Of a stretch of DNA of 64,000 nt, positions 5,938 through 45,992 are shown piece by piece. Source of the DNA: Tannerella serpentiformis. Its GTDB lineage: Bacteria; Bacteroidota; Bacteroidia; Bacteroidales; Tannerellaceae. Location: positions 558,001-622,000 of the forward strand of contig NZ_CP028365.1 in the NCBI RefSeq assembly GCF_003033925.1, read 5' to 3'. Position numbers and translations under genes: made by a program. The stretch's first letter is position 1; the number at the start of each line of letters is the position of its first letter. The notes below the pieces were generated by a model. The model was not told the origin of the DNA, ran no database searches, and saw only the letters and a program-made list of their open reading frames with translations.

Positions 5938-6268
5938 GGAGGTCCATTTCGGGCAACTTTGGCGAAAGTGATCCGGGGCGAGGTCCATTTCAGGCAACTT
6001 TGGCGAAAGCGATCCGGGGCGAGGTCCATTTCGGGCAACTTTGGCGAAAGTGATCCGGGGCGAGGTCCATTTCGGGCAGCTTTGGCGAAAGTGATCCGGG
6101 GCGAGGTCCATTTCGGGCAGCTTTGGCGAAAGCGACCCGGGGCGAGGTCCATTTCGGGTAGCTTTGGCGAAAGTGACCCGGGGCGAGGTCCATTTGGGGT
6201 AGCTTTGGCGAAAGTGACCCGGGGCGAGGTCCATTTCGGGCAACTTTGGCGAAAGCAACCCGGGGCGC
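5938..6268 (+). repeat. Tandem array A: eight 41-bp units upstream of a DUF6261 gene
   Basis: The motif GGTCCATTTC recurs at 5941, 5982, 6023, 6064, 6105, 6146, 6187 and 6228, exactly 41 bp apart. Each unit can fold on itself: CGGG and CCCG/TCCG flank an inner ACTTT-GGCG-AAAGT hairpin. There are no unique spacers, so it is not CRISPR. Because 41 is not a multiple of 3, the open frames through it are artefacts. About 20 bp beyond the array is a perfect dyad, ACTATGC-A-GCATAGT (6288-6302). The array plus about 75 bp of right flank recurs at 38.9-39.34 kb. Confidence 0.95.
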
Positions 6269-6339
6269 AACAGAAATAGAGCCCCCCACTATGCAGCATA
6301 GTAGTACACGACATAAACGCGAACTAAAAAGTACACACA

Positions 6340-7272
6340 ATGAAAAAGACAGTAGAGATCAGGAAGCCGGGAATGAGCAAATTGGACAATTCCCTGCATG
6401 TGCAATTTCACAGCTTAGCCTATGGCCTGGTTAAGGGTGCCGACATCACCAAACTGGGCATCCCGAACGAGCTGATGGTCGAGTGGGACGGCAATAAGAG
6501 TATCGAGACGGACATCACCAAGGTCTCGCAAATAAGCGCTGAGACAAGGTTGATGCAGGAGAAAGATGGGGAACGCGATGGGCTGTTGACTTACATCATG
6601 GGCACCATTCGCAATGCCCAGTTCCTGCCTGATAAGGACATCGTAGAGGCTGCGATTCGTATTGCGGCAGTAGTCAAACCGTACAACGGGATGCAGAACG
6701 AAGGCTTCGATCGTGAAACGGCGGACATCAGGGGGCTGGTGGCCGACCTGAAAAAGACGGAGAACGCAGCAGATATAGCCAAGCTCGGACTCACGCCGAT
6801 GCTCACAAAACTGGAAACGACGAACCAAGAGTTCGACGACTTATACACGAAGCGCATGACGTCTGACACGGGTGCGAAACTTCCACTTTCCAGCAAGATC
6901 CGCCCCGAAACAGATGCCATCTACGACCGCGTAATCCTCATCCTACAGTGGAACTATCTCAATGGTGCTACGCCGATCGACCCCGAGGTTATCGCTACGT
7001 TGGCTGAGAACCTTTGCAAGCTGGCCGATCGTATCGATGCCGATTATAATCGGAGCCTTGCTCAGAAGAAGGCTGCTGCAAAGAAGAAGCCCAAGGAACC
7101 TAAGCAACCGAAAGAGCCTAAGCAACCCAAGGACCCCAAGACGCCCGATCAGCCGAAGGATCCGAAGCAGCCGGAGACGCCTCAGCCACCGAAACCGGAT
7201 GGCGAGAAACCGAAGGATCCGAAGAAACCGGGTGGCGACGGTAATCCTGACATCACGTTGCCGGAGGAATAG
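6340..7272 (+). CDS. DUF6261-like protein with Lys/Pro-rich tail
   Basis: A 310-residue protein, mostly helical. The first 240 residues match the two other DUF6261-like proteins in this window (21309-22271 and 31908-32645); shared landmarks are QFHxLxYGLVK near the N-terminus, an ERDGLL block and an IRGL block. Residues about 250-310 are a low-complexity tail of KEPKQPKDPKTP-type repeats ending GNPDITLPEE. That tail is nearly the same, also at DNA level, in the 21309-22271 gene. No signal peptide. Function unknown; the family name is from memory. It sits between array A and a terminator. Confidence 0.7.
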   Translation: MKKTVEIRKPGMSKLDNSLHVQFHSLAYGLVKGADITKLGIPNELMVEWDGNKSIETDITKVSQISAETRLMQEKDGERDGLLTYIMGTIRNAQFLPDKDIVEAAIRIAAVVKPYNGMQNEGFDRETADIRGLVADLKKTENAADIAKLGLTPMLTKLETTNQEFDDLYTKRMTSDTGAKLPLSSKIRPETDAIYDRVILILQWNYLNGATPIDPEVIATLAENLCKLADRIDADYNRSLAQKKAAAKKKPKEPKQPKEPKQPKDPKTPDQPKDPKQPETPQPPKPDGEKPKDPKKPGGDGNPDITLPEE

Positions 7273-7320
7273 GGTACCCGGTTGTAGGGGCGAATTGCAT
7301 TCGCCCCACAGGTACCCGGA
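7266..7320. repeat. REP-like palindromic element
   Basis: GGGGCGAATTGCATTCGCCCC is an interrupted palindrome bounded by ACCCGG/GTACCCGG. The same words (GGTACC or CGGGTAC, GCGAATgCaATtCGCC, CCCCTACA) recur at 7366-7487, 21114-21305 and in the phage region, so this is a dispersed family. Confidence 0.7.
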
Positions 7321-7326
7321 ATGATT

Positions 7327-7363
7327 AAAGGGCATCCCCAAACAGATGGGGGTGCCCTTTTTT
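7327..7363 (+). terminator. Rho-independent terminator after the DUF6261 gene
   Basis: GGGCATCCCC and GGGGGTGCCC pair (one G-T) around a short loop and are followed by a T run. It isolates the DUF6261 gene from the riboswitch operon. Confidence 0.85.
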
Positions 7364-7365
7364 GT

Positions 7366-7487
7366 ACCCGGTTGGCATGGATCGTTCGGCCCCGTTGGGA
7401 CCGTTCGGTGGGGCGTATGCAATACGCCCCTACATGGGTACACGCCATTCATGTACCAGGCAAACTTGGCTGGCATCCCTGATGCCT
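7366..7487. repeat. REP-like elements between DUF6261 gene and riboswitch
   Basis: This holds GTACCCGGTTGGCATGG, GCGTATGCAATACGCCCC, and CAAACTTGGCTGGCATCCC near its end. All are variants of words found at 21114-21305, where they occur in the mirror position on the other side of the metal-uptake genes. Confidence 0.65.
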
Positions 7488-7508
7488 TTCTACTTTGCTT
7501 TCTGATTC

Positions 7509-7516
7509 TATTTTTG
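7509..7516 (+). promoter_or_regulatory. candidate -7 box (TATTTTTG) for the riboswitch transcript
   Basis: TATTTTTG fits TAnnTTTG. It would place the transcript start at about 7523, right where the riboswitch fold begins. No clear -33 box. Confidence 0.45.
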
Positions 7517-7524
7517 CCGCCGTT

Positions 7525-7722
7525 TTCGGTGACGCATCGTAGGCCGTCCGGCCCACGGCGTAAAAAGGGAATCCAGTGAAAGACTGGAACAGTGCCCGCT
7601 ACTGTAACACCCCGCCTATCGAACAAAGGAGAGCACCCGCAAGACGTGCCACTGCCGCCCCCGGAGCGGCGGGAAGGCCCACAGCCCCCCTTCAGGGTGA
7701 AGTCAGGAAACCTGCCGGAAAC
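7525..7722 (+). promoter_or_regulatory. Cobalamin riboswitch
   Basis: The class signatures are all present in order: AAAAGGGAATCCAGTG, AAAGACTGGAAC, GTGCCCGCTACTGTAAC, then the B12 box AGTCAGGAAACCTGCC at about 7701-7716. It lies directly upstream of the TonB receptor gene at 7771. Adenosyl- or other cobalamin binding normally shuts off expression. Downstream, 7733-7756 can form a hairpin that may be the expression platform. Confidence 0.96.
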
Positions 7723-7732
7723 AACACGTATA

Positions 7733-7756
7733 CCGCCCCTCGGGGTCAAGGGGCGG
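7733..7756 (+). promoter_or_regulatory. Candidate riboswitch expression-platform hairpin
   Basis: CCGCCCCT (7733-7740) pairs perfectly with AGGGGCGG (7749-7756) across an 8-nt loop. The 3' arm runs into GGAGG (7755-7759), 11 bp before the ATG. There is no T run, so translation-level control is more likely than termination. Inference from sequence only. Confidence 0.5.
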
Positions 7757-7770
7757 AGGTTACAAAAGGG

Positions 7771-10167
7771 ATGTTTCACACATACGAGATACATAGGAGA
7801 TGCCTGTCGGACGTCGCACTGCGGCGCGCCCTGATGCTGCTTGCCGGGCTGCTTTACCTTCTCGACGCCGCCTCACAGGGCACGGTGCGAGGTACGGTGC
7901 GCGACGCTGCGGGTAGACCTGTCGTGGCCGCCACGGTCGCTGCCGGTGCACAGCGTGGCACATCCACCGACGACCGCGGTGCCTATGCCCTCGAACTGCC
8001 CGCCGGACGCACGACGCTCACCGTTTCGTCCGTCGGTTACAAGACGGTTAAGGCCGAGGTGGACGCAGCGCGAACCCCCACGCAGAACTTTGTGCTCGAG
8101 GAAGACGCCGTCACACTCAACGTTGTCGAAGTCTACGCCAAAAGCCCCGCACAGCGTCTCCGCGAGAGCGCCTTCGCCGCCGCGGCCCCCGATGTCAAGG
8201 CGCAGCTGAGTCAGCTGCACGACCTCAACACCCTCGTCGGCCGCACCGCCGGCGTCAAGGTGCGCGAGGAGGGCGGCGTCGGCTCCGACTTCGAGCTATC
8301 GATCAACGGCCTCTCGGGCAACTCCATCCGCTACTTCATGGACGGCCTGCCGCTCGCCACGAAGGGCAGCGGCGTATCGCCCGCCAACCTCCCGGTCAAC
8401 CTCATCGAGCGCGTGGAGATCTACAAAGGCGTCGTCCCGGCCTACCTCGGCGCCGACGCGCTGGGGGGCGCCATCAACATCATCACCCGCCGCGAGCAGC
8501 GCAACTACCTCGACGCTTCGTACGGCATCGGCTCCTTCCACACGCATAAGGCCGACCTCTTTGCGCAGGTCGTCGATCGGCGCACGGGGATTATCGTGCG
8601 GCCTGCGGCAGGCTTCAACTTCTCCAAGAACGACTACCGAGTGCGCGGCGTGGAGCTGTGGGACGAGGCGGCGCAGGAGTTCCGCCTCACCGATCGGCGT
8701 CGCTTCCACGACGACTACCTCTCCGCCCTCATGCAGCTCGAGGCCGGCGTCAGCCGCCGCACCTGGGCCGACGAGCTGTTCGTCTCTGCCTCCTACTCCA
8801 CCACCCGCAAGCAGCTTCAGACGGGCGCCATGCAGACCATCGTCTACGGCGCCGCCGAACGTCAGACGGAGGCCTGGAACATCGCCGCGCGGTATGCCAA
8901 GAAGGCCCTCTTCCTGCCCGGACTCAACGCCTCGCTCTCGGCCTCACACACCTGGGATCACGCCCAGACGATCGACACCACCTTCCGCAAATACCGCTGG
9001 GACGGCTCCTACATCGAGTCCGCCCGCAGCGAGATCTTAGGCCGCGACCGCATGCACCGACACTATCGCCGCCCCTTAATGCTCGTCCGCCTCGGGCTGG
9101 ATTACCACTTCAGCCTGCACCACTCGCTGAACCTGAACTACCTCATGAACCGCACCGGCAATCGCCGTACGGACGACGTGGATTCGGACTTTGCGCCCTC
9201 GGACGACATCTTCGCCAAGCATACACTCGGCCTCTCCTATAGCCAGCTGCTCGTCGAAGACCGTTGGCAGAACACGTTCTTCGTCAAGAACTACACGAAC
9301 TACCTGAAGGTTGGGCAGCAGGAACTCCCCTGGATCACCGGTTCGGGTGAGGTGCAGGGCTCTTCGACAAAGAATCATACGGGCTACGGCCTGGCCACGC
9401 GTTACGCCTTCCCCTCCGACGCCTTCGCTGTGAAAGCCTCCTACGAGCACAGTCTGCGTCTACCCATGTCGCGCGAGCTGCTCGGCAACGGCACCACCGT
9501 CTATGCCAACCTACGTCTGCGTCCGGAGAACAGTCACAATATCAACCTCGGCTTCTTCGGTGCGCTCCGCCCCGCCCCCGGTCATCGGTTGGATTACGAG
9601 TTGAACGCCTTCTATCGCGACGTGAAGGATTACATCCGCCTCGTCGTCTCCGAGACCGAAGGCACCAGCCAGTACGACAACGTGCCCGGCGTGGGCATCC
9701 GGGGCCTCGAGGGCGAGCTGCGCTATGCCTACTCCGACCTGCTGCAGGTCGTGGCCAACGGCAGCTGGGAGGACGCCCGCAGCATGACGCGCTACTATCC
9801 CGACGGCAAGGAGATGATCACCTATCGCAACCGCATCCCCAATCGCCCGTGGCTCTTTGCCCACGTCGAGGCGACGCTGAAGCGGCGCGACCTCCTCATC
9901 CCCCGCAGCACGGTGCGGCTGACGTACAACTTCGACTTTGTCCGCAGCTTCTTCCTCACCTGGGAGGGCTACGGCAGCCTCGACAGCAAGTCGCGCATCC
10001 CCACGCAGTATCGCCACGACGTCTCCCTCTCCGTCTCCTTCGCCGATGAGCGCTACAACATCTCGCTCTCGTGCAACAACCTCTTCGACCGTACGCTCTA
10101 CGACAACTATAAACTCCAGAAGCCGGGCCGTGCCTTCTTCTGCAAGTTCCGTGTGTTCATTAATTAG
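7771..10167 (+). CDS. TonB-dependent outer-membrane receptor under cobalamin riboswitch control
   Basis: 798 residues from ATG 7771; the frame is open upstream but that part is the riboswitch itself. Order: signal segment (about 25-42), a CarboxypepD_reg-like beta-sandwich (about 44-110), plug domain (about 135-240, with RVEIYKG and ADALGGAINIITRR), then the 22-strand barrel. The riboswitch argues for cobalamin or another corrinoid as cargo (BtuB-like). The following DUF4374 and PepSY genes argue for a xusA-like siderophore or metallophore receptor. The chelatase gene downstream fits either a cobalt/corrin or a tetrapyrrole cargo. Cargo is unproven. Confidence 0.88.
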   Translation: MFHTYEIHRRCLSDVALRRALMLLAGLLYLLDAASQGTVRGTVRDAAGRPVVAATVAAGAQRGTSTDDRGAYALELPAGRTTLTVSSVGYKTVKAEVDAARTPTQNFVLEEDAVTLNVVEVYAKSPAQRLRESAFAAAAPDVKAQLSQLHDLNTLVGRTAGVKVREEGGVGSDFELSINGLSGNSIRYFMDGLPLATKGSGVSPANLPVNLIERVEIYKGVVPAYLGADALGGAINIITRREQRNYLDASYGIGSFHTHKADLFAQVVDRRTGIIVRPAAGFNFSKNDYRVRGVELWDEAAQEFRLTDRRRFHDDYLSALMQLEAGVSRRTWADELFVSASYSTTRKQLQTGAMQTIVYGAAERQTEAWNIAARYAKKALFLPGLNASLSASHTWDHAQTIDTTFRKYRWDGSYIESARSEILGRDRMHRHYRRPLMLVRLGLDYHFSLHHSLNLNYLMNRTGNRRTDDVDSDFAPSDDIFAKHTLGLSYSQLLVEDRWQNTFFVKNYTNYLKVGQQELPWITGSGEVQGSSTKNHTGYGLATRYAFPSDAFAVKASYEHSLRLPMSRELLGNGTTVYANLRLRPENSHNINLGFFGALRPAPGHRLDYELNAFYRDVKDYIRLVVSETEGTSQYDNVPGVGIRGLEGELRYAYSDLLQVVANGSWEDARSMTRYYPDGKEMITYRNRIPNRPWLFAHVEATLKRRDLLIPRSTVRLTYNFDFVRSFFLTWEGYGSLDSKSRIPTQYRHDVSLSVSFADERYNISLSCNNLFDRTLYDNYKLQKPGRAFFCKFRVFIN

Positions 10168-10276
10168 AGGGTAGAGGGTAGAGGGTAGAGAGTAGAGAGT
10201 AGAGGGTAGAGAGTAGAGGGTAGAGAGTAGAGGGTAGAGAGTAGAGAGTAGAGGGTAGAGAGTAGAGAGTAGAGGG
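10165..10276 (+). repeat. Heptanucleotide microsatellite, 16 copies
   Basis: Sixteen 7-bp units, TAGAGGG or TAGAGAG, run without a break from the stop codon of the receptor gene (the TAG is the start of unit 1). They fill much of the gap before the lipoprotein gene. The array is likely length-variable by slippage. It is non-coding, so any effect would be on transcript structure or spacing within the operon. Confidence 0.95.
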
Positions 10277-10355
10277 TAGAATAGAGGGCAGAGGGTTGAC
10301 TGAAGCCCTTCCATTAAGAATGACAATTGACTTACACCAATAAATAGACACAGAG

Positions 10356-11621: not shown

Positions 11622-11645
11622 ACGATATCAACGCACAGAAGATTG

Positions 11646-13103: not shown

Positions 13104-13158
13104 GGCTGTTTGACTACGCTGACTACTACTTCTTATTACCCCCTAACTGCTTATTCGA

Positions 13159-14076
13159 ATGAAAACCTATTTCATCGCCTTTCTACTGATGATTACCGCA
13201 ATCAGCTACGCGCATGACGGAGAGAATTTCGTCGCCTCCGACATGCTCAAGTCCATGCAGCCCGGCGACAAAGCCGCCATCGTCATGGTCTATTTCGGGT
13301 CCACGCACGACGACACCCGAGCTCTCACCATCGATGCCCTGACCCGCGAGGTACGCGCCGCCTACCCGACGCTGGAGGTACGCGAGGCCTACACCTCACG
13401 CATCGTGCGCCGCCGGCTTCGCGATCGCGGCGTTGAGACATCTGCTCCGCTTGAAGTGCTGAAGCAGCTCAAATCCGACGGCTTCACCCACCTTGTCATC
13501 CAATCCGCCAACATCATCGAAGGCGTGGAGATGGAGGCCTTGCGTCGCGAGGTGGCGTCCGTAGCCGCTGACTTCAAGGAGGTGCGTATCGGCACCCCGC
13601 TGCTCTACATGCCGGAGGATTACGCGGCCGTGATCCGCGCCCTCGCCCCCGCGCCCGCTGATGACGCCGCCGACGTCTGGGTGGGCCACGGCAGCTACGA
13701 TCCCGCCACGGCACAGTACGCCATGCTCGGCTACATGCTCGCCGCCGAGGGCCGCGCACGCTGCTTCGTGACCACCATCGAGGGCTACCCCACGTTCGAC
13801 GACCTCCGGGCAAAGCTCAAGCAGAGCGGTGCGAAACGCGTCACCCTGCGCCCCTTCATGTTCGTCGCTGGAGACCACGCTAAGAATGACATCGCCACCG
13901 ATATGAAGCAAGAGCTCGAAAAGGAAGGCTACCGCGTCAACGTCCTCCTCGAAGGCCTCGGCCAGAGCGACGCCATCCGTGCCCTCTACCTGGCCCACAT
14001 CCGCTTTGCACTGAACCACCGCATGTTCGACATCCTCTCCAAAAAGAAACATTACGAGACGAACGATCGCGACTAA
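13159..14076 (+). CDS. Exported CbiK-type sirohydrochlorin cobaltochelatase-like protein
   Basis: 305 residues. The N-terminus is a signal peptide (hydrophobic IAFLLMITAISYA), so the enzyme is periplasmic, unlike Salmonella CbiK but like the periplasmic CbiK of Desulfovibrio. Two metal-site His are recognisable: His177 in VGHGS and His240 in AGDHAKND, the class II chelatase pair. The family inserts Co2+ or Fe2+ into sirohydrochlorin and, in some members, protoporphyrin. In a cobalamin-riboswitch operon with no cytosolic corrin pathway genes, a periplasmic metal-loading or metal-removing role on an imported tetrapyrrole is plausible but inferred. Confidence 0.88.
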   Translation: MKTYFIAFLLMITAISYAHDGENFVASDMLKSMQPGDKAAIVMVYFGSTHDDTRALTIDALTREVRAAYPTLEVREAYTSRIVRRRLRDRGVETSAPLEVLKQLKSDGFTHLVIQSANIIEGVEMEALRREVASVAADFKEVRIGTPLLYMPEDYAAVIRALAPAPADDAADVWVGHGSYDPATAQYAMLGYMLAAEGRARCFVTTIEGYPTFDDLRAKLKQSGAKRVTLRPFMFVAGDHAKNDIATDMKQELEKEGYRVNVLLEGLGQSDAIRALYLAHIRFALNHRMFDILSKKKHYETNDRD

Positions 14077-14090
14077 GACGCTGACACAAA

Positions 14091-14157
14091 TGCGGGGACG
14101 GATTCTCCCCCTCTTAGAACAACACTACACTACACATTACACCCATCCGTCCCCGCA
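14091..14157. terminator. Long inverted repeat after the chelatase gene
   Basis: TGCGGGGACGGAT (14091-14103) is perfectly complemented by ATCCGTCCCCGCA (14145-14157), with a 41-nt loop. There is no T run. It could be a bidirectional or processing-type 3' structure separating the riboswitch operon from the next receptor gene. Similar G-rich hairpins follow the next two receptor genes. Confidence 0.5.
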
Positions 14158-14276
14158 CACTTATGGAACGCATCGAATCAGTCCTCCCTCGTCGTCGATT
14201 GAATTGACGAGGCTATCTCACCAATTAAGTAACGTGAGTTCGACGAAAGCATGAGGCGTCTTGTCTCTGGAGAAGG

Positions 14277-14563
14277 TCTTGCAGCAATGCTGCAAATGCT
14301 TCGAAAAACTTTTCAGCGTTTGCAACACCGTTGCGAGTCTCACGAAAAACTTTTCGGCGTTTGCAACACCGTTGCAAGTCTCACGAAAAACTTTCTGGCG
14401 TTTGCAACACTGTTGCAAGTCTCACGAAAAACTTTCTGGCGTTTGCAACACCGTTGCAAGTCTCACGAAAAACTTTTTGGTGTTTGCAACACCGTTGCAA
14501 GTCCCACGAAAAACTTTTTGGCGTTTGCAACACTGTTGCAAGCATTTCCAAAAGCGTTTTGGC
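14277..14563 (+). repeat. Tandem array B: seven 41-bp units upstream of a TonB receptor
   Basis: GTTTGCAAC recurs at 14318, 14359, 14400, 14441, 14482 and 14523, all 41 bp apart. A divergent unit starts at 14277. Each unit carries a dyad TTGCAAC-ACC/T-GTTGCAA. In the first unit the dyad is TTGCAGC-AAT-GCTGCAA: both arms changed and the symmetry survived. The spacer contains CTCACGAAAAACTTTTTGGC. The array ends 85 bp before the receptor start at 14649. Open frames through it are artefacts. Confidence 0.95.
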
Positions 14564-14648
14564 TATCGCGTGGCTTCCGTAAAGAGTCTCTGCTGGTTTT
14601 ATGCTTACATCGAACTCACATTAAGTATCACCCAAACATTATATCAGA

Positions 14649-17003: not shown

Positions 17004-17023
17004 TCTCATCCTTCAAGGATATG

Positions 17024-17064
17024 GGGGGCGAATCGCACTACACCCTATTCACCGATTCGCCCCC
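17024..17064 (+). terminator. Hairpin between the tandem receptor genes
   Basis: GGGGGCGAATCG (17024-17035) pairs perfectly with CGATTCGCCCCC (17053-17064) over a 17-nt loop, 20 bp after the stop codon. With no T run it may attenuate rather than end transcription, or protect the upstream mRNA. Confidence 0.55.
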
Positions 17065-17140
17065 GCTACCCTAAGCATGCATTTACCTGTCGCAGAAATA
17101 ATCGCACAAAACATTTGTCACAATCAAACACTACACGAGA

Positions 17141-21308: not shown

Positions 21309-22271
21309 CTATTCCTCCGGCAACGTGATGTCAGGGTTACCGTCGTCACCCGGTTTCTTCGGATCCTTCGGTTTCTCGTCCGGTTTCTTGGGCTGTTCGC
21401 CAGCGCCACCACCGGGCTTCTCCGGCTGCTTCGGTTCCTTCGGCTGATCGGGAGTCTTGGGGTCCTTGGGTTGCTTGGGGTCTTTCGGTTGCTTGGGCTC
21501 TTTAGGAGCGTTCGGATCCTTAGGCTTGCGACTGGCCAAGATCTGACGCTGGTTGCCCTTAATGTCGATCACAACCTTATTCATACGATCGACGAGCTGC
21601 TCAATCATCGCCTTGTCCTCGTCGGCCGTAGCGGTGAGGTAGGCTGACTGAATGTACTGGCAAACGACATCGTAGGCGGCGTCAGTCAGCGGACGCACCT
21701 GCTGAGCTGTCGGGAGTTTCTCGTCGGAGGTTTGGATACGGCGATCGGTGCGGAGCTTTTCGTACTCCTCATTGACGGTATGCAGTCGCGTCAGAACGTC
21801 GGTGAGGCCAACGGCTGCAATGTCCGCCGTCTTTGTCTTCATGTCGTCTTCCAAGCCGCGTATACCCACACTTTCCATTTCGAACGGGCGACTGCGGAGG
21901 TTGGTGTACGGTTTCAGTTTGGCCTCGAGGCGTAGCGCGGCTTCGCGGGTAGCTTCCGTGGGCGAGTACTTCAAACCGCTGACGACATGAAAGATGCCGT
22001 CCAGCAGGTTGTCGCGTTCGTTGTCCAGAGCCAGCATTTTGGCGGTACGCTCGGAAGCGGCCGATTGTTCGACGAGCTTCGTCTGCGCGCCGATCGTCGT
22101 GTCCCAAGCGTTCATCACTGTGACAGGGATTTTGAGCTTTGTCTGATCCACCGCCTTCACCAGTCCGTATTGCAGGTAGTGAAACTGGGTGTGGAGCGAG
22201 ATGTTCAACATCTGTCTGTTGCCCCCTTCAAATTTCATGACCCGGGGCAAGGTCACTTCGAGTATTTTCAT
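21309..22271 (-). CDS. DUF6261-like protein with Lys/Pro-rich tail, inverted partner of 6340-7272
   Basis: 320 residues from the ATG at 22269-22271; the frame extends upstream into repeat DNA. The first 250 residues share QFHYLQYGLVK, an ERDNLL block and an IRGLEDD block with the 6340-7272 product. The tail of KEPKQPKDPKTPDQPK repeats ending GNPDITLPEE is almost the same. The two genes face each other across the whole metal-uptake cluster. Function unknown. Confidence 0.7.
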   Translation of the reverse strand: MKILEVTLPRVMKFEGGNRQMLNISLHTQFHYLQYGLVKAVDQTKLKIPVTVMNAWDTTIGAQTKLVEQSAASERTAKMLALDNERDNLLDGIFHVVSGLKYSPTEATREAALRLEAKLKPYTNLRSRPFEMESVGIRGLEDDMKTKTADIAAVGLTDVLTRLHTVNEEYEKLRTDRRIQTSDEKLPTAQQVRPLTDAAYDVVCQYIQSAYLTATADEDKAMIEQLVDRMNKVVIDIKGNQRQILASRKPKDPNAPKEPKQPKDPKQPKDPKTPDQPKEPKQPEKPGGGAGEQPKKPDEKPKDPKKPGDDGNPDITLPEE

Positions 22272-22450
22272 TTCTCTCAGGGTGTTTATTAACCATGCAA
22301 AGGTGCATGAAATGCCAGAAGATTCGATGCTCCCCCTGAATTGGAGCAAGATGTTTTTGAAGCAGAAAGGTCGTCCTCAAACACGAAATGGATCTCTGCT
22401 CCCGTGAAACGCCAAAATGAAACGCGAAACCGATCGCTGATTTCCAAAAA

Positions 22451-22741
22451 CGCCTTCCCGCCGCGGGAAACCGATCAAAACTTCCGAAAAACGCCTTCCC
22501 GCGGCGGGAAATGGGGTAAATTCTCAGAAAAACGCCTTCCCGCGGCGGGAAATGGGAAAAATTCTCAGAAAAACGGTTTCCCGCGGCGGGAAAGCGATAA
22601 AATCTCCCGAAAAACGGTTTCGTGCGGCGGGAAGGCGGTAAAATTTGCTGGAGATCGGTTTCCCGCGGCGGGAAATGGGGCAAATTCTCCGAAAAACGCT
22701 TTCCGCCGCGCGAAGAGCATTTTCAAGAAGCCGCCGTCCCC
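22451..22741. repeat. Tandem array C: seven 41-bp units, GC-rich dyads
   Basis: The dyad recurs with its reference T at 22455, 22496, 22537, 22578, 22619, 22660 and 22701, always 41 bp apart; a degenerate, slightly out-of-phase eighth follows near 22736. Most units carry TTCCCGC-N-GCGGGAA (7-bp arms, 1-bp centre) next to a TCTCAGAAAAAC spacer. That spacer resembles array B's CTCACGAAAAAC. The array lies 180 bp upstream of the minus-strand DUF6261 start. Confidence 0.95.
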
Positions 22742-31079: not shown

Positions 31080-31907
31080 CTAAAAACGAGTTACGAGCGA
31101 ATGGTTACGAGTTACAAGAGCTAAGTGACCGTAGATTGGGGGTCGAAAGCGGCGGCAAAGAAAGAGAAAAGCGAAAGCGAACATCCGACGGTGATCACGA
31201 TGAGGCTGTCTGACGTTGTAAAGCCGCTCACGGGATAAAAATTCAGATCTTCGTGCACGCACATCAATCTTTGATGAATTATCTATACTGAAAAATGCAC
31301 ACACATATAGGATGTTATATTCGTTTGAAATTCATCCTGCACACACGAAATAGCAAATAACTATATGCTAAATAATTCGTGTATACCTATCGCAACACAA
31401 AAATAGATTATAGATTTCACTCCAAGCATGTACAGTTAAGAATGATCATATCTATATATTCATCCATACCATAGAATAGAATATCATCTATATGCAGTTC
31501 ATACTGCATGGATTTTAATTACTATACAATATGATTAAACTATACACGCATGGAAGTGAACATAGATATCATATTCATATAATATACATGCGCGCACAGA
31601 AATAATCAAATCATTTTTTCTTATCTCCGTGACATCATGAAGTAGAGAACTCTATCTGATCTATTTTATAGGACATCCATATAATCATAGAGATAAGTAA
31701 ATACAGATTCATGTTCGCGCACGAAGCGAATAAGATCATTTTAGACTTATCTTTGTGGCATCAAACAGAGATAAAACGAAAGGATGAGAACCTATTGCGA
31801 GGTCACACGACAGCGAAAATATTTCAGCGAAAGCTCCTCCAACGATCATCGACCCAAACGATTTTTGGTGGAACCTTTCTGCAAACGGAACTTACACCAT
31901 TAATTAT
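31080..31907. other. 828-bp AT-rich intergenic region
   Basis: From about 31210 the base composition drops sharply in GC relative to the GC-rich genes on both sides. It has TATA-rich text and one perfect dyad, ATGCAGT-TCAT-ACTGCAT (31492-31509). Two imperfect direct copies of a segment (CGCGCAC...ATCATTTT...TTATCT...GTG.CATCA) start at 31591 and 31716. The second contains TATCTTTG (31748-31755), a plausible -7 box for the rightward genes. No gene is convincing here. Confidence 0.6.
31748..31755 (+). promoter_or_regulatory. candidate -7 box (TATCTTTG) for the third DUF6261 gene
   Basis: A match to TAnnTTTG, 152 bp before the ATG at 31908. No TTTG at the usual -33 distance. Confidence 0.35.
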
Positions 31908-32645
31908 ATGAAGGAGATCGATTATCCCGACATGAGGCGTGCGAACAACGGGGCGCATGGCATGTTCATGCAATCAGTCAGCGAGCGGCTGGAGAAGGAA
32001 TCGGAGGTGATGAAAAACGCCGTGATGCAACGGGCGGCTATGGCGCTGAAGGCAGCTATGGAAGAGGAATCACTCTATCTGGGACGGTCACGCAAAAGCC
32101 TACTGACGGACGAAATCAAGACTGCGGACAAGGAGCGAGATGGCCTACTAACGGGCCTCCGTGCCACGGTGCGCGGACTTCGGCGTCTGCCCGATCCTGA
32201 GAAGGCCAAGGCTGCTCAAGAATTGGAGGTGATGCTGAGCGGCAACCGGGTAAAACGCAGCATGCAGCTGGATCGCGAAACAGGCATGATCACGAAGCTC
32301 ACGGAGGAGCTGGAAACGACGTATGCCTCGCAAGTGTCACTACTTAGCATAGGCCTGTTCGTGAGTGGGCTCAAAGCGGCCAACGAGCGGGTGAAAGGCC
32401 TAATCGACGAACGATCAAATGGCGAGGTGGAGCGTAAACCGGCGGCTATGCAGCAGGCGCGGCTGCGGACCGATGCGGCCTTTAGGCAGGTGGCCCGGGT
32501 GGCCAACGCCATGGCTGTGCTGGAGGACGAAGCGGTGGTGGCGCCGTTCATCAACTTCGTGAACGAGCTGGTGCGGCGCTATCGGCAGCAGGTCTTCCCC
32601 AAACGGAAAAAGAAGGCGGAAAGCACAAAGACGGAAAACGCATGA
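31908..32645 (+). CDS. DUF6261-like protein without the Lys/Pro tail
   Basis: 245 residues, helical and charged. It aligns with the first 240 residues of the other two family members (an ERDGLL block at about 72, a following RGLRRLPDPEKAKAA segment, and LRTDAAFRQV near 195). It ends in a short basic tail (RKKKAESTKTENA) instead of PKEPK repeats. Its stop overlaps the acyltransferase start (ATGA), so it leads the polysaccharide operon. Confidence 0.65.
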   Translation: MKEIDYPDMRRANNGAHGMFMQSVSERLEKESEVMKNAVMQRAAMALKAAMEEESLYLGRSRKSLLTDEIKTADKERDGLLTGLRATVRGLRRLPDPEKAKAAQELEVMLSGNRVKRSMQLDRETGMITKLTEELETTYASQVSLLSIGLFVSGLKAANERVKGLIDERSNGEVERKPAAMQQARLRTDAAFRQVARVANAMAVLEDEAVVAPFINFVNELVRRYRQQVFPKRKKKAESTKTENA

Positions 32646-33668: not shown

Positions 33669-33702
33669 TTTTGCAAAGGTTTAGCCCCCCGGCTTACTTT
33701 TG
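33669..33702 (+). promoter_or_regulatory. Promoter with both Bacteroidetes elements
   Basis: TTTTG ends at 33673 and TACTTTTG spans 33695-33702, a 21-bp spacing that fits the Bacteroidetes -33/-7 pair. It lies in the only gap of the glycan cluster and would start a transcript about 30 bp before the ATG at 33737. Confidence 0.8.
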
Positions 33703-33736
33703 CCGCGCTCTTAGGAACAACAGTAAAAACCACACG

Positions 33737-37073: not shown

Positions 37074-37161
37074 CTCTTAGCTCTTCATTTTTAGATGTAC
37101 CCTCTACCTTTACCGCGAAAATCAGAGCCATAGATCAGTGATAGAGAGGAGAAGGCAACCC

Positions 37162-38784: not shown

Positions 38785-38898
38785 GGCAATGACCCATAGG
38801 CCATTCTAAAAGGGAGAGATGCCGGCTGCGGAGACAACTGAATCTTTCCAGATCTCCCCGCGGGGTGGAGGCTTCGGGGGATTACAAATGCTTTTTGA

Positions 38899-39267
38899 GG
38901 TCCATTTCGGGTTGTTTTGACGAAAGTGACCCGGGGCGAGGTCCATTTCGGGCTGCTTTGGCGAAAGTGACCCGAGGCGAGGTCCATTTCGGGCTACTTT
39001 GGCGAAAGTGACCCGGGGCGAGGTCCATTTCGGGCTGCTTTGGCGAAAGTGACCCGGGGCGAGGTCCATTTCGGGTTGCTTTGGCGAAAGTGATCCGGGG
39101 CGAGGTCCATTTCGGGCAGCTTTGGCGAAAGTGATCCGAGGCGAGGTCCATTTCGGGTTGCTTTGACGAAAGTAACCCGGGGCGAGGTCCATTTCAGGCC
39201 GCTTTGGCGAAAGTGACCCGGGGCGAGGTCCATTTCGGACAGCTTTGGCGAAAGCGATCCGGAGCAC
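38899..39267 (+). repeat. Tandem array D: nine 41-bp units, same family as array A
   Basis: GGTCCATTTC recurs at 38899, 38940, 38981, 39022, 39063, 39104, 39145, 39186 and 39227, exactly 41 bp apart. Units are about 90 percent alike with array A. The right flank also matches array A's for about 75 bp, including ACTACGC-A-GCATAGC (39287-39301) and CATAAACACGAACTAAAAAG. It lies between the DUF6377 gene and nqrA. Confidence 0.95.
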
Positions 39268-39428
39268 AACGGAAACAGAGGTTCCCACTACGCAGCATAG
39301 CATTACACCACATAAACACGAACTAAAAAGTATACGCCCTACAGGTATCAGGTCCATTTCGCCGGCATCCGAAGATGCCCCAGCGCGCCTCGGATAATCG
39401 CCGATCATTAAACCTGAAGGAAAGCACC

Positions 39429-39436
39429 TATTTTTG
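39429..39436 (+). promoter_or_regulatory. candidate -7 box (TATTTTTG) for the nqr operon
   Basis: A TAnnTTTG match 40 bp before the nqrA ATG. The -33 element is weak. Confidence 0.5.
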
Positions 39437-39475
39437 GCGTCGCAAACAGAAAATAATAATAGAACCAGAAGTAAC

Positions 39476-40834: not shown

Positions 40835-40862
40835 TCAACCACCATTAATCGGAAAATAGAAA

Positions 40863-42050
40863 GTGAAAGCATTAAGGAATTACCTCAATAAGATCAAGCC
40901 GACCTTCGAGGAGGGTGGCCGCCTGTCGATGTTTCGCTCCGTATTCGAGGGGTTCGAAACGTTCCTGTTCGTCCCCAGCGACACGTCGCAATCGGGCGTA
41001 CACATCCACGACAGCATCGACTCCAAGCGCACGATGACGGTCGTCGTCATCGCCCTCATCCCAGCGCTGCTGTTCGGCATGTACAACGTGGGCTATCAGC
41101 ACAACCTGGCCATCGGCGCCGAACAGCTCTTCTGGCCTGCGTTCCTCTTCGGCTTCCTGGCCGTGCTGCCCAAGATCATCGTCTCGTACGTCGTCGGGCT
41201 CGGCATCGAGTTCGCGGTGGCGCAATGGAAGAAAGAAGAGATACAGGAAGGCTTCCTCGTCTCGGGTATGCTGATCCCTATGATCGTGCCCGTGGATACG
41301 CCCCTGTGGATGATTGCCCTGGCCACGGCCTTCGCCGTCGTCTTCGCCAAGGAAGTGTTTGGCGGCACGGGCTACAACATTTTTAATGTCGCCCTCGTCA
41401 CCCGCGCCTTCCTCTTCTTCGCCTACCCCGCCGCCATGTCGGGCGACAAGATCTTCGTCCGCACCGCCGACACGTTCGGCTTAGGCACCGGTAGCGTCGT
41501 CGACGGTTTCTCAGGCGCCACACCGCTGGGCATCGCCTCCACAGCCACATCGGGCACAGGCTATCCGGCCTTCTCAATGGATATGATCACCGGTCTCATC
41601 CCCGGCTCCATCGGCGAGACGAGCGTCATCGCCATCGCCATCGGCGCCGTGCTGCTGCTCTGGACGGGCATAGCCAGCTGGAAAACGATGCTGTCCGTCT
41701 TCGTGGGCGGCGCACTCACGGCCTGCATGTTCAACGCCATCGGTATGGAGAACAACGCCATGGCCAACATGCCGTGGTACGAGCACCTCGTGCTGGGCGG
41801 CTTCTGCTTCGGCGCCGTCTTCATGGCCACCGACCCGGTGACCTCAGCCCGCACCGAACGCGGCAAGTGGATCTACGGCTTCCTCATCGGCTTCTTGGCC
41901 ATCTGCATCCGTGTCCTCAACCCGGGCTATCCCGAAGGCATGATGCTGGCCATATTGATGATGAACATCTTCGCTCCGCTGATCGACTATTACGTGGTCG
42001 ACGCCAACATCAAACGTCGGGCTGCCCGACTCAAACAAACCGCTAACTAA
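40863..42050 (+). CDS. nqrB: Na+-translocating NADH:quinone reductase subunit B
   Basis: 395 residues from GTG 40863. Multi-span membrane subunit. Its covalent FMN site SGAT is at 217-220 (Thr220), and GFLVSGMLIPMIVPVDTPLW is the conserved channel region. It starts 28 bp after nqrA. Confidence 0.96.
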   Translation: MKALRNYLNKIKPTFEEGGRLSMFRSVFEGFETFLFVPSDTSQSGVHIHDSIDSKRTMTVVVIALIPALLFGMYNVGYQHNLAIGAEQLFWPAFLFGFLAVLPKIIVSYVVGLGIEFAVAQWKKEEIQEGFLVSGMLIPMIVPVDTPLWMIALATAFAVVFAKEVFGGTGYNIFNVALVTRAFLFFAYPAAMSGDKIFVRTADTFGLGTGSVVDGFSGATPLGIASTATSGTGYPAFSMDMITGLIPGSIGETSVIAIAIGAVLLLWTGIASWKTMLSVFVGGALTACMFNAIGMENNAMANMPWYEHLVLGGFCFGAVFMATDPVTSARTERGKWIYGFLIGFLAICIRVLNPGYPEGMMLAILMMNIFAPLIDYYVVDANIKRRAARLKQTAN

Positions 42051-42072
42051 TCATGGGGAGACGGATAACATT

Positions 42073-42768
42073 ATGGCAACTAAGTTGAATACAAACGGAA
42101 ACGGATACACCGTGATTTATGCCACGGTGATGGTCGTCGTCGTGGCCCTGCTCTTGGCCTTCACCTCGCAGGCGCTCAGCTCGGCCCAGAAGGCGAACCA
42201 GGACAACGACAAGCGACAGCAGATCCTCCGCGCGGTGAACGTCAGCGTGCCCGCCAGTGAGGCTGAAGCGAAATACAAGGAACTGATCAAGGAGGCCTTC
42301 CTGGTCGATGCCGACGGCAATCGCGTAGACGGCGACGCCTTCAGCGACGACGTCAAGAAGCAGTTTGCCCGCGGCGTCTTCCCCGTCTTTGTCGCCACGG
42401 TAGACGGACAGACGAAGTACATTCTGGCCATGCGTGGCACCGGCCTCTGGGGTCCGCTGTGGGGCTATATGTCGGTCAACGACGACTGCAACACGGTCTT
42501 CGGCGCCGACTTTAGCCACGAGAGCGAAACGCCCGGTCTGGGTGCCGAGATCGTACAAAAAGCCTTCTCCGGACAGTTCGCCGGCAAAGAGCTCTTCAAG
42601 GACGGCGCCTTCAAATCGATCGCCGTCGTGAAGCATGGCAACAAAGCCGACGGCCAGGACTATGTGGACGGCATCTCTGGCGGCACCATCACCAGCAACG
42701 GCGTCAACGCCATGATCCAGACCAGCCTGGGGCACTACGCCGGATTCCTAACCAAGCAAAAACAATAA
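42073..42768 (+). CDS. nqrC: Na+-translocating NADH:quinone reductase subunit C
   Basis: 231 residues, one N-terminal membrane segment (about 12-33) and a periplasmic FMN_bind domain. The flavinylation motif reads SGGTIT (202-207, acceptor Thr205), with Gly in place of the common Ala of SGAT. Confidence 0.95.
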   Translation: MATKLNTNGNGYTVIYATVMVVVVALLLAFTSQALSSAQKANQDNDKRQQILRAVNVSVPASEAEAKYKELIKEAFLVDADGNRVDGDAFSDDVKKQFARGVFPVFVATVDGQTKYILAMRGTGLWGPLWGYMSVNDDCNTVFGADFSHESETPGLGAEIVQKAFSGQFAGKELFKDGAFKSIAVVKHGNKADGQDYVDGISGGTITSNGVNAMIQTSLGHYAGFLTKQKQ

Positions 42769-42774
42769 AGAGAT

Positions 42775-43401
42775 ATGGGTTTATCAGCAAAGAATAAAGA
42801 GATCCTGTTCAACCCCCTGAGCAAGGACAATCCGGTCATCGTGCAAATGCTGGGCATCTGCTCGGCCCTGGCCGTGACCGTCAAACTGCAGCCGGCGCTC
42901 GTCATGGCCATCTCCGTGACGGCCGTCGTGGCCTTCGCCAACGTCATCATTTCGCTGCTCCGCAAAACGATCCCCAACCGCATCCGCATCATCATCCAGT
43001 TGGTCGTTGTGGCCGCGTTGGTGACGATCGTCAACGAGATACTCAAGGCCTTCGCCTACGATGTCAGCAAGCAGCTCTCCGTCTACGTCGGGCTGATCAT
43101 CACGAACTGTATCCTGATGGGGCGCCTCGAGGCCTTCGCCTTGGGCAACAAGCCCTGGGAGTCGTTCCTCGACGGTGTGGGCAATGGCGCCGGCTACGGC
43201 ATTATCCTCGTCGTCGTAGCCTTCGTCCGCGAGCTCTTCGGATCGGGCACACTGCTCGGTTTCCGCATCATCCCGCAAGCTGTCTACGATGCAGGCTACG
43301 TCAACAACGGCCTGATGATCATGCCTCCGATGGCCCTCATCCTCTGCGCCGTCATCGTATGGATACACCGTGCACGCAACAAGGATTTGCAAGAGAAGTA
43401 A
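42775..43401 (+). CDS. nqrD: Na+-translocating NADH:quinone reductase subunit D
   Basis: 208 residues with six predicted membrane helices. The conserved VYVGLIITNCILMGRLEAFA block holds the Cys that, with NqrE, coordinates the membrane iron centre. Starts 6 bp after nqrC. Confidence 0.95.
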   Translation: MGLSAKNKEILFNPLSKDNPVIVQMLGICSALAVTVKLQPALVMAISVTAVVAFANVIISLLRKTIPNRIRIIIQLVVVAALVTIVNEILKAFAYDVSKQLSVYVGLIITNCILMGRLEAFALGNKPWESFLDGVGNGAGYGIILVVVAFVRELFGSGTLLGFRIIPQAVYDAGYVNNGLMIMPPMALILCAVIVWIHRARNKDLQEK

Positions 43402-43440
43402 CACACATGTCACTGACGAAAAAGAAAGGAGTAAACAATC

Positions 43441-44058
43441 ATGGATAACCTATTAAGCACATTCATCCGGTCGATCTTCGTCGACAACATGATCTTCGCC
43501 TACTACTTAGGCATGTGTTCCTACCTCGCCGTGTCGAAGAACGTCAAGACCGCCCTCGGCCTCGGTCTGGCCGTCACCTTCGTCCAAGTCTGCACGCTAC
43601 CGATCAACTACCTGCTCGAGAATTACGTCCTCAAAGAGGGCGCACTGGCCTGGCTCGGTGCGGGCTTCCAGGACGTCAACCTGAGCTTCCTGGCCTTCAT
43701 CCTCTTCATCGCCGTGATCGCCTCGTTCGTGCAACTGGTCGAGATGGTAATCGAAAAGTTCGCCCCCGCGCTCTATTCATCGCTCGGCATCTTCCTGCCG
43801 CTCATCGCCGTGAACTGCGCCATCATGGGCGGCTCGCTCTTCATGCAGCAGAAAGCCTTCGACAACGTCGGCATCGCCACCGTCTACGGCCTCGGGTCGG
43901 GCATTGGCTGGATGCTGGCCATCGTCGGCATGGCCGCTATTCGCGAGAAGCTGGCCTATTCCGATGTCCCCAAACCGCTGCGTGGACTGGGCATCGCCTT
44001 CATCCTGACCGGCCTCATGGGTATGGCCTTCATGTGCTTCTCAGGGTTCAAAATTTGA
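43441..44058 (+). CDS. nqrE: Na+-translocating NADH:quinone reductase subunit E
   Basis: 205 residues, six membrane helices, inverted topology relative to NqrD. AYYLGMCSYLAVSKNVKTA and PLIAVNCAIMGGSLFMQQ carry the conserved Cys residues of the iron site. Confidence 0.95.
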   Translation: MDNLLSTFIRSIFVDNMIFAYYLGMCSYLAVSKNVKTALGLGLAVTFVQVCTLPINYLLENYVLKEGALAWLGAGFQDVNLSFLAFILFIAVIASFVQLVEMVIEKFAPALYSSLGIFLPLIAVNCAIMGGSLFMQQKAFDNVGIATVYGLGSGIGWMLAIVGMAAIREKLAYSDVPKPLRGLGIAFILTGLMGMAFMCFSGFKI

Positions 44059-44090
44059 GTGGTTTATAAACGTATAAGCAAGAATACAAG

Positions 44091-45377
44091 ATGGTTTTAT
44101 TGGAAATCTCAGGACTGACGATCGGAGCCAGCGTAGCGGTGTTTCTCATCATCGTGCTGCTGCTGGTCGTACTGCTGCTGGTTGCAAAAGCCAAGCTCAT
44201 GCCGTCGGGCAACGTCAAGCTGACCGTCAACGGCGAAAAAGAAATCGAAACGCCCATCGGCGGCACCCTGCTCGGAGCCCTTCAGAGCGGCAACATCTTC
44301 CTCTCCTCCGCCTGCGGTGGCGGCGGTAAATGCGGCCAGTGCCGCGCGCAAGTCATCGAGGGAGGCGGCGACATTTTGCCCACCGAAAAGGTCTTCTTCA
44401 GCCGCAAACAGATGAAAGACCACTGGCGACTGGCCTGCCAAACGAAGGTCAGGAACGACATGACGGTGCAAGTGCCCGACGAAGTCTTCGGCGTCAAGGA
44501 GTACGAGTGCACCGTGGTCTCGAACAAGAACGTGGCCACCTTCATCAAGGAGTTCATCGTGGCCCTGCCCCCGGGCGAGCACATGGACTTCATCCCCGGC
44601 TCCTACGCCCAGATCAACATCCCCAAATTCTCGATGGATTACAACGTCGACATCGACAAAGACTCCATCGGCGCCGAGTACCTGCCCGCGTGGGAAAAGT
44701 TCGGCCTCTTCACCCTCAAATGTCGCAACGACGAGGAGACGATCCGCGCCTATTCCATGGCCAACTATCCGGCCGAGGGCGACCGCTTCATGCTGACCGT
44801 CCGCATCGCCACCCCGCCCTTCAAGCCGAAGCCCCAGGTGGGATTCATGGACGTCATGCCCGGCATCGCATCCTCTTACATCTTCACCCTCAAGCCTGGC
44901 GACAAGGTGAAAATGAGCGGCCCCTATGGCGACTTCCACCCGATCTTCAACTCCAAGAACGAGATGATCTGGATCGGCGGTGGCGCCGGTATGGCCCCCC
45001 TGCGCGCACAGATTATGCACATGACCAAGACGCTCCACACGCGCGATCGGAAGATGTCCTACTTCTACGGCGCCCGCGCCCTGAACGAAGTCTTCTACCT
45101 CGACGACTTCCTGGCCATAGAGAAGGAATACCCCAACTTCTCCTTCCACCTCGCCCTCGACCGACCCGATCCGGCCGCCGATGCTGCAGGCGTGAAGTAC
45201 ACCGCTGGATTCGTTCACAACGTCCTGCACGACACCTACCTCAAGGATCACGACGCACCCGAAGACATCGAGTACTACATGTGCGGCCCCGGCCCCATGT
45301 CGAAAGCCGTAGAGGGCATGCTCGACAGCCTCGGCGTACCGCCCGAGAACCTCATGTTTGACAACTTCGGAGGCTGA
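44091..45377 (+). CDS. nqrF: Na+-translocating NADH:quinone reductase subunit F
   Basis: 428 residues. Membrane anchor (about 12-32), [2Fe-2S] ferredoxin domain with Cys75, Cys81, Cys84 and Cys116, then an FAD/NADH reductase domain (RAYSMANYP for FAD, MIWIGGGAGMAPLRAQ for NADH). It is the electron entry point of the pump and the last gene of the operon, followed by two terminators. Confidence 0.96.
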   Translation: MVLLEISGLTIGASVAVFLIIVLLLVVLLLVAKAKLMPSGNVKLTVNGEKEIETPIGGTLLGALQSGNIFLSSACGGGGKCGQCRAQVIEGGGDILPTEKVFFSRKQMKDHWRLACQTKVRNDMTVQVPDEVFGVKEYECTVVSNKNVATFIKEFIVALPPGEHMDFIPGSYAQINIPKFSMDYNVDIDKDSIGAEYLPAWEKFGLFTLKCRNDEETIRAYSMANYPAEGDRFMLTVRIATPPFKPKPQVGFMDVMPGIASSYIFTLKPGDKVKMSGPYGDFHPIFNSKNEMIWIGGGAGMAPLRAQIMHMTKTLHTRDRKMSYFYGARALNEVFYLDDFLAIEKEYPNFSFHLALDRPDPAADAAGVKYTAGFVHNVLHDTYLKDHDAPEDIEYYMCGPGPMSKAVEGMLDSLGVPPENLMFDNFGG

Positions 45378-45406
45378 AACATCAGCCTGCTGTTTTTTTC
45401 TTCTGG

Positions 45407-45475
45407 ATATGCGGGGGACCCGTCGGGTCTTCCGCATATTTTTTGCCTCGTCGCCCCCCTTGCCGGGGCTTTTTT
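45407..45475 (+). terminator. Tandem terminators after nqrF
   Basis: First hairpin: ATATGCGG/CCGCATAT (45407-45439) with inner GACCCG/GGGTC pairing and a T run. Second: GCCCC/GGGGC (45453-45469) with a T run to 45475. Confidence 0.9.
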
Positions 45476-45565
45476 GTGTCACAATCTGCCGTCGTACGCC
45501 CCACCAGCACTTCTACACCCGTCGCCTCTACAGATCCTACCATGATATATCTTATCGGCACAAAA

Positions 45566-45992
45566 CATCACTTTCATAGCCTATAAAAGTTCTTATTCAT
45601 ACAAAACACAACTTTCATAGCCTATGAATCTCTCTCTGCATCTAAAAACCTACTGAAATAGCCTATAGGAATCATTCCCACTATCTATTCCTATCCTCAT
45701 AGTCTATAAGCATTCCTATCCACATAAAAATCTACTTTCATTGCCTATAAAAGTTCTTATTCATATAGATAACAACTTTCATAGCTTATGAAGCTCTCTA
45801 TTCATCCAAACTCCTATCCATATAGCCAATAAAAACAACTATCATTATCAAAGCAACTTATCATAGCCTATAATGCTTTCTATCTATAGAGAGAACTATT
45901 TCCGTAGGCTATAAAAGTTATATTTCATACGCGGAATAACTTTCATAGCTTATAAATCTTGTACTCCCTATCTACACAAACCATTTTTATAG
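45566..45992 (+). repeat. Tandem array E: AT-rich 41-bp units, about eleven copies
   Basis: The TAG of the core word CATAGCCTAT recurs with its G at 45579, 45620, 45661, 45702, 45743, 45784, 45825, 45866, 45907 and 45948: ten units at exactly 41 bp although the units are only about 60-80 percent alike. An eleventh is shifted by 3 bp (45992). The best unit has a perfect 7+1+7 dyad, TTCATAG-C-CTATGAA. The composition is far more AT-rich than the neighbours. It lies between the nqr terminators and the rmlA promoter. Confidence 0.93.

Follow-up and report, generated by a model that had tools for sequence, protein, structure and literature searches.

Arrays of dyad-bearing 41–42-bp units upstream of DUF6261 genes in Tannerella serpentiformis and other Bacteroidales

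Repetitive extragenic palindromic (REP) sequences and bacterial interspersed mosaic elements (BIME), which go with RAYT (TnpA-REP), are palindromes with a tagged end and a variable stem, and the iterons of Rep proteins are near 20–22 bp with one sequence per replicon. Iterons and multi-operator arrays resemble the arrays reported here in presenting helically spaced direct repeats beside the gene of a presumed binder. In the available portions of PMC8266576 and PMC3733652, the REP/RAYT system appears as extragenic palindromes in high copy number with a linked gene family. Within the Bacteroidales, the available portions of PMC4596501 describe BrickBuilt of Porphyromonas gingivalis as a 23-nt repeat in a miniature inverted-repeat transposable element (MITE), with promoter activity, and those of PMC4755523 describe PINSR of Prevotella intermedia as an intergenic high-copy repeat, i.e., a 188-bp dispersed single sequence. 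Here, we consider five tandem arrays, A to E, found in a stretch of 64,000 nucleotides of Tannerella serpentiformis (positions 558001–622000 of the genome's one contig of 3,013,500 bp; hereafter the window, to whose own numbering the coordinates of window features refer), together with the uncharacterised protein family DUF6261 (PF19775).

Throughout the order, DUF6261 genes are paired with upstream arrays of 41–42-bp period, whose sites often combine fixed ends with a symmetric and free core. BrickBuilt, to which the original prediction had thought the arrays might be related, is likewise an intergenic minisatellite in a Bacteroidales genome, but the relation does not hold, given its 23-nt unit, its single element family with leader and tail and, in the portions of PMC4596501 at hand, no linked gene family, compared with periods of 40–43 bp here. 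PINSR shares with the arrays its high copy number and intergenic location in a Bacteroidales species; it differs in that the same portions of PMC4755523 give neither a fixed-period array nor a linked gene, whereas the present arrays have a fixed period and are linked to DUF6261. Unlike iterons, the arrays have variable cores, and the linked protein matches no Rep or winged-helix family and no PDB fold at E 0.001. With the operator array of a multimerising DNA-binding protein they have in common dyad sites at a fixed spacing near whole helical turns, if the phase is as the spacing suggests. The variable spacers of a CRISPR (clustered regularly interspaced short palindromic repeats) array are missing, the whole unit repeating at ≥90% in fresh arrays; among ten scanned proteins flanking the window arrays, none matches a Cas family and two have no match at all. 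The open-access literature, including that on DUF6261, on Tannerella and on Bacteroidales repeats, returned no description of a DUF6261-array system, and the available portions of PMC13298647, on T. serpentiformis, make no mention of such repeats. That the spacing persists over changing sequences points to a gene-plus-array system as yet undescribed.

The T. serpentiformis genome contains 55 DUF6261 matches. The 700 bp upstream of each gene were scored by self-match at the best lag of 20–130 bp against 50 shuffles, and a significant lag of 40–43 bp, or the double or triple of it, was taken as positive. On this basis, an array lies within 700 bp upstream of 51 of the 55 genes and downstream of 13, compared with an upstream array in 66 of 268 other genes of the genome sample described below (scored against 20 shuffles, not 50). 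In this genome, arrays are common generally and near-universal upstream of DUF6261 genes. The exceptions are L041, with an array about 956 bp upstream, L045 and L046, with arrays 389 and 361 bp downstream, respectively, and L051, for which neither flank gave an array. The genome's sole Y1 transposase match (C1:1380004–1380351, L260) ends about 540 bp before the L051 gene start. The converse association fails, as a DUF6261 domain lies within 900 bp downstream for only 7 of the 68 array rows of the sample.

Beyond T. serpentiformis, loci were picked by the protein alone, the array not being considered, and comprise 28 loci from relatives, 28 from the wider order and 45 named loci; counts on these 101 include three duplicates among the named loci (L132, L137 and L146), and L149, L167, L168, L173 and L175 are excluded from some locus counts. 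An array is present upstream in 77 of the 101 (100 testable) and downstream in four (95 testable), i.e., upstream in 23/28, 21/28 and 33/45 and downstream in 1, 0 and 3 for the relatives, the wider order and the named loci, respectively. DUF6261 occurs in 32 of 295 genomes of the order, T. serpentiformis included, and in 20 of 184 genera, the counts per genome being lower bounds since the best 12 candidates were scored. Named hosts include Tannerella, Paludibacter, metagenome-assembled genomes of Prevotellaceae and Prolixibacteraceae, and Prevotella nigrescens, where the record itself names the gene DUF6261 family protein and a 41-bp array reaches the annotated start. A tblastn search with one protein returned a P. 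nigrescens record and two short faecal records labelled "Bacteriophage sp." and lacking annotation. In all three, the upstream self-match exceeds 50 shuffles at a lag of 41 or 83; the P. nigrescens record has a better-scoring lag of 120 farther upstream. As an absence control, nine genomes that lack a DUF6261 match (some being incomplete) were sampled, and their 811 kb yielded a single 42-bp repeat of two copies. From 600 kb of six further genomes that carry DUF6261 came 11 arrays, namely seven in G219 and four in G305, whereas 80 kb sampled from each of G088, G243, G026 and G065 (1–11 counted DUF6261 copies) contained none. Both DUF6261 genes of the G219 sample have an array just upstream, five more arrays having no DUF6261 gene in the stretch, and the single DUF6261 gene of the G305 sample has one upstream, with one of the three other arrays sitting at the stretch edge. 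Arrays away from DUF6261 genes are seen only where the family is abundant.

In the window, the five arrays were recovered at the positions first reported (no strand being assigned to B, C and E). Array A (5932..6267, plus strand; 8.2 copies of 41 bp by Tandem Repeats Finder, TRF) stands 72 bp ahead of the start codon (ATG) of a DUF6261 gene (L029, 6340..7272, plus strand, 310 aa; PF19775 at E 2.7e-39), whose product has K/P-rich C-terminal repeats and the final residues PDITLPEE. Array B (14277..14570, 41-bp period; TRF 14302–14542, 5.9 copies) is an orphan, no DUF6261 gene adjoining it. Array C (22446..22714, 41-bp period; TRF 22446–22704, 6.3 copies) lies directly upstream of a minus-strand DUF6261 gene (21309..22271, 320 aa from the first ATG, Pfam match). 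Array D (38897..39262, plus strand, 41-bp period; 8.9 copies by TRF) is the sister of A, and array E (45566..45992) is AT-rich, its ten units having diverged but still falling in 41-bp register. One more DUF6261 gene, the third in the window (31908..32645, plus strand, 245 aa), without the K/P-rich tail and all-helical by prediction, is preceded by a degenerate 42-bp array (31254..31540, no strand assigned), which is weak, its self-match of 0.49 being just above 50 shuffles.

Whole-array self-match at lag 41 reaches 0.92, 0.86, 0.68, 0.90 and 0.54 for A to E, respectively. Over lags of 15–139, the best is 41 in A–D and 123, i.e., 3 x 41, in E (0.55), while the highest self-match among 200 shuffles over those lags is 0.38–0.40 for the window arrays. 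Unlike A–D, array E is not called by TRF; its register holds because, with its first ten units cut at 41 bp, the core columns agree at 76% and the others at 48%, against 30% expected from composition. The genome-wide survey of periods covered 464 kb, namely the window and 20 evenly spaced 20-kb stretches, with an overlap of 2 kb between two of these pieces, where TRF resolved 83 merged arrays of at least 80 bp each. The period is 41 in 28 of them, 42 in 27, 40 in five and 43 in one, the remaining ones having other periods or multiples (84, 123 or 126 in six). Among the 99 TRF arrays upstream of 153 DUF6261 genes, it is 42 in 54, 41 in 40, 43 in three and 40 in two. The exact 41-bp period originally announced holds in A–E, where it is the local expression of a narrow peak at 41/42 that runs over many families, as the tandem-repeat survey then proposed has brought out. 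The periods stay within 40–43 instead of spreading broadly, and local alignment does not reduce the arrays to a single family, although 39 of 61 orphan rows have some similarity to a gene-linked array, often at only about 60%; the original idea survives on both counts.

As proposed, A and D form one family, with 90% identity and the frame TTTC-N13-GAAA. Arrays B, C and E had been considered unrelated, and local alignment indeed does not unite the families, but a frame is partly shared between them. The frame TTGC-N9-GCAA is present throughout array B, whose dyad is TTGC-AACACCGTT-GCAA with the linker CGAAAAACTTTTTGG, and which is related to the array of a DUF6261 gene with its domain start at genome position 1647120 (72% over 240 bp). 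The TRF consensus dyad of array C is TTTC-CCGCGGCGG-GAAA, the frame TTTC-N9-GAAA being exact in two units. Array E approaches it with the core TTTC-ATAGCCTAT, as TTTC-N9-GAA in two units and with no exact match.

Dyads and frames were tested on TRF-resolved units, i.e., those of 99 of the 153 loci and 46 of the 61 sample arrays, weak arrays being unrepresented; the 46 sample units were chosen by at least 3 copies and at least 80% matches, and overlap in part with the 35 gene-linked units of T. serpentiformis. Dyads of about 15–20 bp are present in many units, in support of the original prediction. Among the unit consensuses, arms score at least 6 in 37 of the 64 taken from other genomes (4.4 expected) and in 19 of the 35 gene-linked ones of T. 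serpentiformis (2.6 expected); dyads are present in 34 of its 46 sample arrays (6.8% of shuffles). When the 256 tetranucleotides are ranked as inverted pairs in the other genomes, TTTC...GAAA (17/64) and TTGC...GCAA (15/64) lead, with a median of 1, and the span of the leading pairs clusters at 17–19 bp. Of the 64 other units, 24 contain the combined frame TTKC-N9to11-GMAA without mismatch (0.6 expected), as do 4 of 35 (0.3 expected) and 11 of 46 (0.4 expected) in T. serpentiformis. If one mismatch is tolerated, TTKC ranks first among 12 half-site permutations in each of the three unit sets. The main peak of the spacing is N=10 in other genomes and N=9 in T. serpentiformis. A second dyad half a unit off scores at least 5 in 12 of 34 cases (7.6% expected), its centre distance of 19–21 bp being partly forced by the masking of the first dyad, so that no weight is given to it. 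An odd-centre preference of the dyads in T. serpentiformis was discarded, being absent from other genomes.

Between the preferred ends, the core varies and still pairs. In the other genomes, 12 of 24 frame instances pair at all three inner positions, versus 3.6% for arms taken from different arrays, and the 24 instances contain 14 different inner triplets; in T. serpentiformis, 6 of 15 pair, versus 6.7%. In the superfamily of array B, linker and ends are constant while the core changes, sister arrays exhibit a change on both sides in three of seven pairs, and 3 of 500 shuffles attain the covariation score, which is modest evidence. At the edge of some arrays in this superfamily (window about 14540–14565 and elsewhere), a variant linker resembling CCAAAAGCGTTTTGG adjoins AAATGC, so that arrays may have defined ends.

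With regard to transcription, TAnnTTTG, the Bacteroidetes-type -7 box, is found between -120 and -15 in 15 of the 55 T. serpentiformis DUF6261 genes (1.8 expected) and in 16 of 97 genes elsewhere (4.9 expected), its position over all loci peaking at -60 to -31. As the likely box then stands between array and start codon, the array precedes the promoter at those loci that have a box.

Taken from these sequence patterns, the reading favoured here, with moderate confidence, is that the array is the cis part of a gene-plus-array module, with DUF6261 as the gene, and probably a helically phased platform for a multimerising protein. The dyads would lie on the same face of the DNA at intervals of four turns, if the phase follows the spacing, and would be bound as double-stranded DNA by a candidate dimeric protein that multimerises in constant steps over the array; selection would then act on spacing and leave sequence free to drift. 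DUF6261 promoter output would be set by the array, the core sequence would serve as an address, and orphan arrays of the same address would be copies or targets of the module, array copies presumably spreading through DUF6261-rich genomes. The candidate binder would be either DUF6261, with a contribution from its basic C-terminus, or another protein of the host. A common length-keeping factor, as invoked in the original prediction, is likely; the association with DUF6261 genes and the shared dyad frame had escaped it. More speculatively, and with considerable doubt on our part, the modules could represent a new class of Bacteroidales genetic element, each a gene together with an address array of its own, where a protein assembly would read spacing and dyad ends, the symmetric core would be a fast-changing identity tag separating up to 55 paralogous modules of one genome, and array copies would bring the tag to other genes. 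The pairing offers a first functional context for DUF6261, may account for much of the intergenic DNA of one genome, constitutes a natural case where the spacing of DNA is kept and its sequence is not, and is testable with simple pull-downs and reporters.

Several observations weigh against the proposed module. There is no array upstream in 24 of the 101 other DUF6261 loci (one of them untestable), and 22 of the 61 orphan rows are without similarity to any gene-linked array. The exact frame is missing from 40 of the 64 other unit consensuses, and it is not universal because AAAC...GTTT is commoner than TTTC...GAAA in T. serpentiformis (22/81 versus 15/81). In the B superfamily, the both-side changes are reached by 28 of 500 shuffles, the number of further pair types, reached by 429 of 500, is not above shuffles, and five of eight sequences fail to pair at the innermost position. 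The sample arrays, gene-linked ones included, are without strong gene-start preference, with 38 in co-directional, 9 in divergent and 7 in convergent gaps, as compared with 80, 18 and 23, respectively, for all gaps of at least 150 bp, which is what dispersed repeats would show. As for the protein, DUF6261 has no PDB match at E 0.001 or better (Foldseek) and no helix-turn-helix match, the scanned proteins matching only PF19775 above cut-off; of 43 aligned proteins, most are acidic over the first 215 residues (median -8, range -16 to +3). Moreover, a Mantel test on 32 T. serpentiformis arrays shows no co-variation of protein and array similarity (r 0.05, a value attained in 186 of 999 permutations), and the L029 and L037 proteins have a normalised similarity of 0.77 with unrelated arrays. 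On this evidence, DUF6261 itself may or may not be the binder of the arrays.

Regarding the protein further, AlphaFold predicts nine helices, with a mean predicted local distance difference test (pLDDT) of 90.1 for a window protein and 94.5 for the relative L133, and a PDB sequence search gave weak matches only, mostly to helical bundles. The window proteins are near neutral over their first 215 residues (+2, -4 and 0), and a short basic end occurs in many DUF6261 proteins. At the C-terminus, 37 of the 55 T. serpentiformis copies carry a P[DE]IxLP motif, mostly after K/P-rich repeats, and several relatives have a C-terminal extension of a different kind. The DNA of the K/P-rich tail is 81–93% alike between otherwise different DUF6261 genes (e.g., L029/L032 and L025/L036), as if the tails had been exchanged by recombination. 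A defence or phage origin of DUF6261 was rejected for three proteins, the best PADLOC match having E 0.018 and the best PHROG match E 0.043.

The main rival is that the arrays are selfish repeats of REP/RAYT type, which DUF6261, or something it needs, would make, spread or homogenise, with orphans as offspring and the step given by the copying machinery; we regard it as possible, if only tentatively so. In its favour, array and gene have moved as a block ending at the stop codon: array C with its gene has three copies at three genome sites, 95–97% alike over about 1,440 bp with unrelated flanks, where homology begins at the first array unit and ends within 2 bp of the stop codon. Array D, for its part, matches A through the homologous leader that separates A from its gene (39263..39335 after D, plus strand) and stops 3 bp short of the expected start codon, no DUF6261 gene following. 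In most of the 22 orphan/gene-linked pairs compared, only the array itself is homologous, whichever its orientation; a few matches, weak ones at about 60%, extend beyond it. Arrays without a DUF6261 gene in the stretch occur in the DUF6261-rich genomes of T. serpentiformis (G000, 61/68 rows), G219 (5/7) and G305 (3/4, one at the stretch edge), and no array at all occurred in the samples of the four genomes with 1–11 counted copies. The general likeness to REP/RAYT is evident in high-copy extragenic palindromes with a preferred end, a variable stem and a linked gene family, and in dispersed palindromes sharing sequence with a gene-linked copy, many of them weakly; the difference lies in strict tandem arrays at 41–42 bp. 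On the other hand, the scanned DUF6261 proteins match no transposase or nuclease family, and G026 has one gene with an array and no further arrays in its sample. Actual membership in REP/RAYT was rejected, the linked gene having no Y1/HUH match and the genome a single Y1_Tnp match. The usual tags, sought anywhere in the unit, are not enriched either in other genomes (GTAG 5/64, 16.5 expected; CGTC 12/64, 17.4 expected) or in T. serpentiformis (GTAG 6/46, 12.4 expected; CGTC 13/46, 13.7 expected).

According to a second and unlikely alternative, the dyads extrude as cruciforms, and the hairpin array senses or absorbs supercoiling upstream of the promoter with no sequence-specific binder. A core free in sequence yet paired, and the absence of co-divergence between protein and array, would fit, but extrusion requires neither the preferred ends TTKC/GMAA nor a fixed step, and the arms are short. 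A role of transcribed arrays as a series of RNA hairpins appears quite improbable: many unit dyads would fold as short stems with a centre of 0–5 nt, but arm mismatches carry no strand bias, with 105 G-T versus 97 A-C cells (20 arrays with more G-T, 18 with more A-C), equality that argues for double-stranded DNA rather than RNA, and the promoter box, where seen, is downstream of the array. Ordinary minisatellites, arising by slippage and unequal recombination and near DUF6261 by chance, are the least credible explanation by far: units are homogenised within an array and a quarter of other T. serpentiformis genes also have an array within 700 bp upstream, but a common 41–42-bp period over many sequences, dyads, a shared frame, the gene association across the order and the near absence from sampled DUF6261-free genomes speak against it, in agreement with the original argument that slippage alone is insufficient for a quantised period over many families, now also linked to a gene.

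As regards genomic location, 54 of 61 arrays are classed as intergenic, in a sample with 121 gaps of at least 150 bp, one gap being able to hold several arrays. Three lenient gene calls contain arrays, and a stop-to-stop filter puts 13 of 61 arrays in long open frames, of a kind common in GC-rich DNA.

Other repeats were encountered alongside. A second class with a 22-bp period, about two helical turns and apparently dyadic, is found at L003:17648–17970, L014:13464–13777 and L018:17993–18120, with ACGTTCCGGAACGTGGT-like units, adjoined in L003 by ATTAAATACCCCTCG-like ones. Repeats built on GGGGCGTATTGCATACGCCCC are located at L022:306–2256, at L020:16014–18190 and in the flanks of DUF6261 genes (e.g., L031, L048 and L049), beside which they often lie, with periods that are in places multiples of 42 (84, 168, 210, 252 and 378). 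In the window, a 7-bp tandem array of TAGAGGG in 19 copies (10165–10296) has six units to 42 bp, and a 43-bp array of 3.4 copies (51579–51725) is dissimilar to the other sampled arrays. Finally, a cobalamin riboswitch (Rfam RF00174, 83.4 bits) lies at 7510–7733, with a CbiK gene downstream at 13159.

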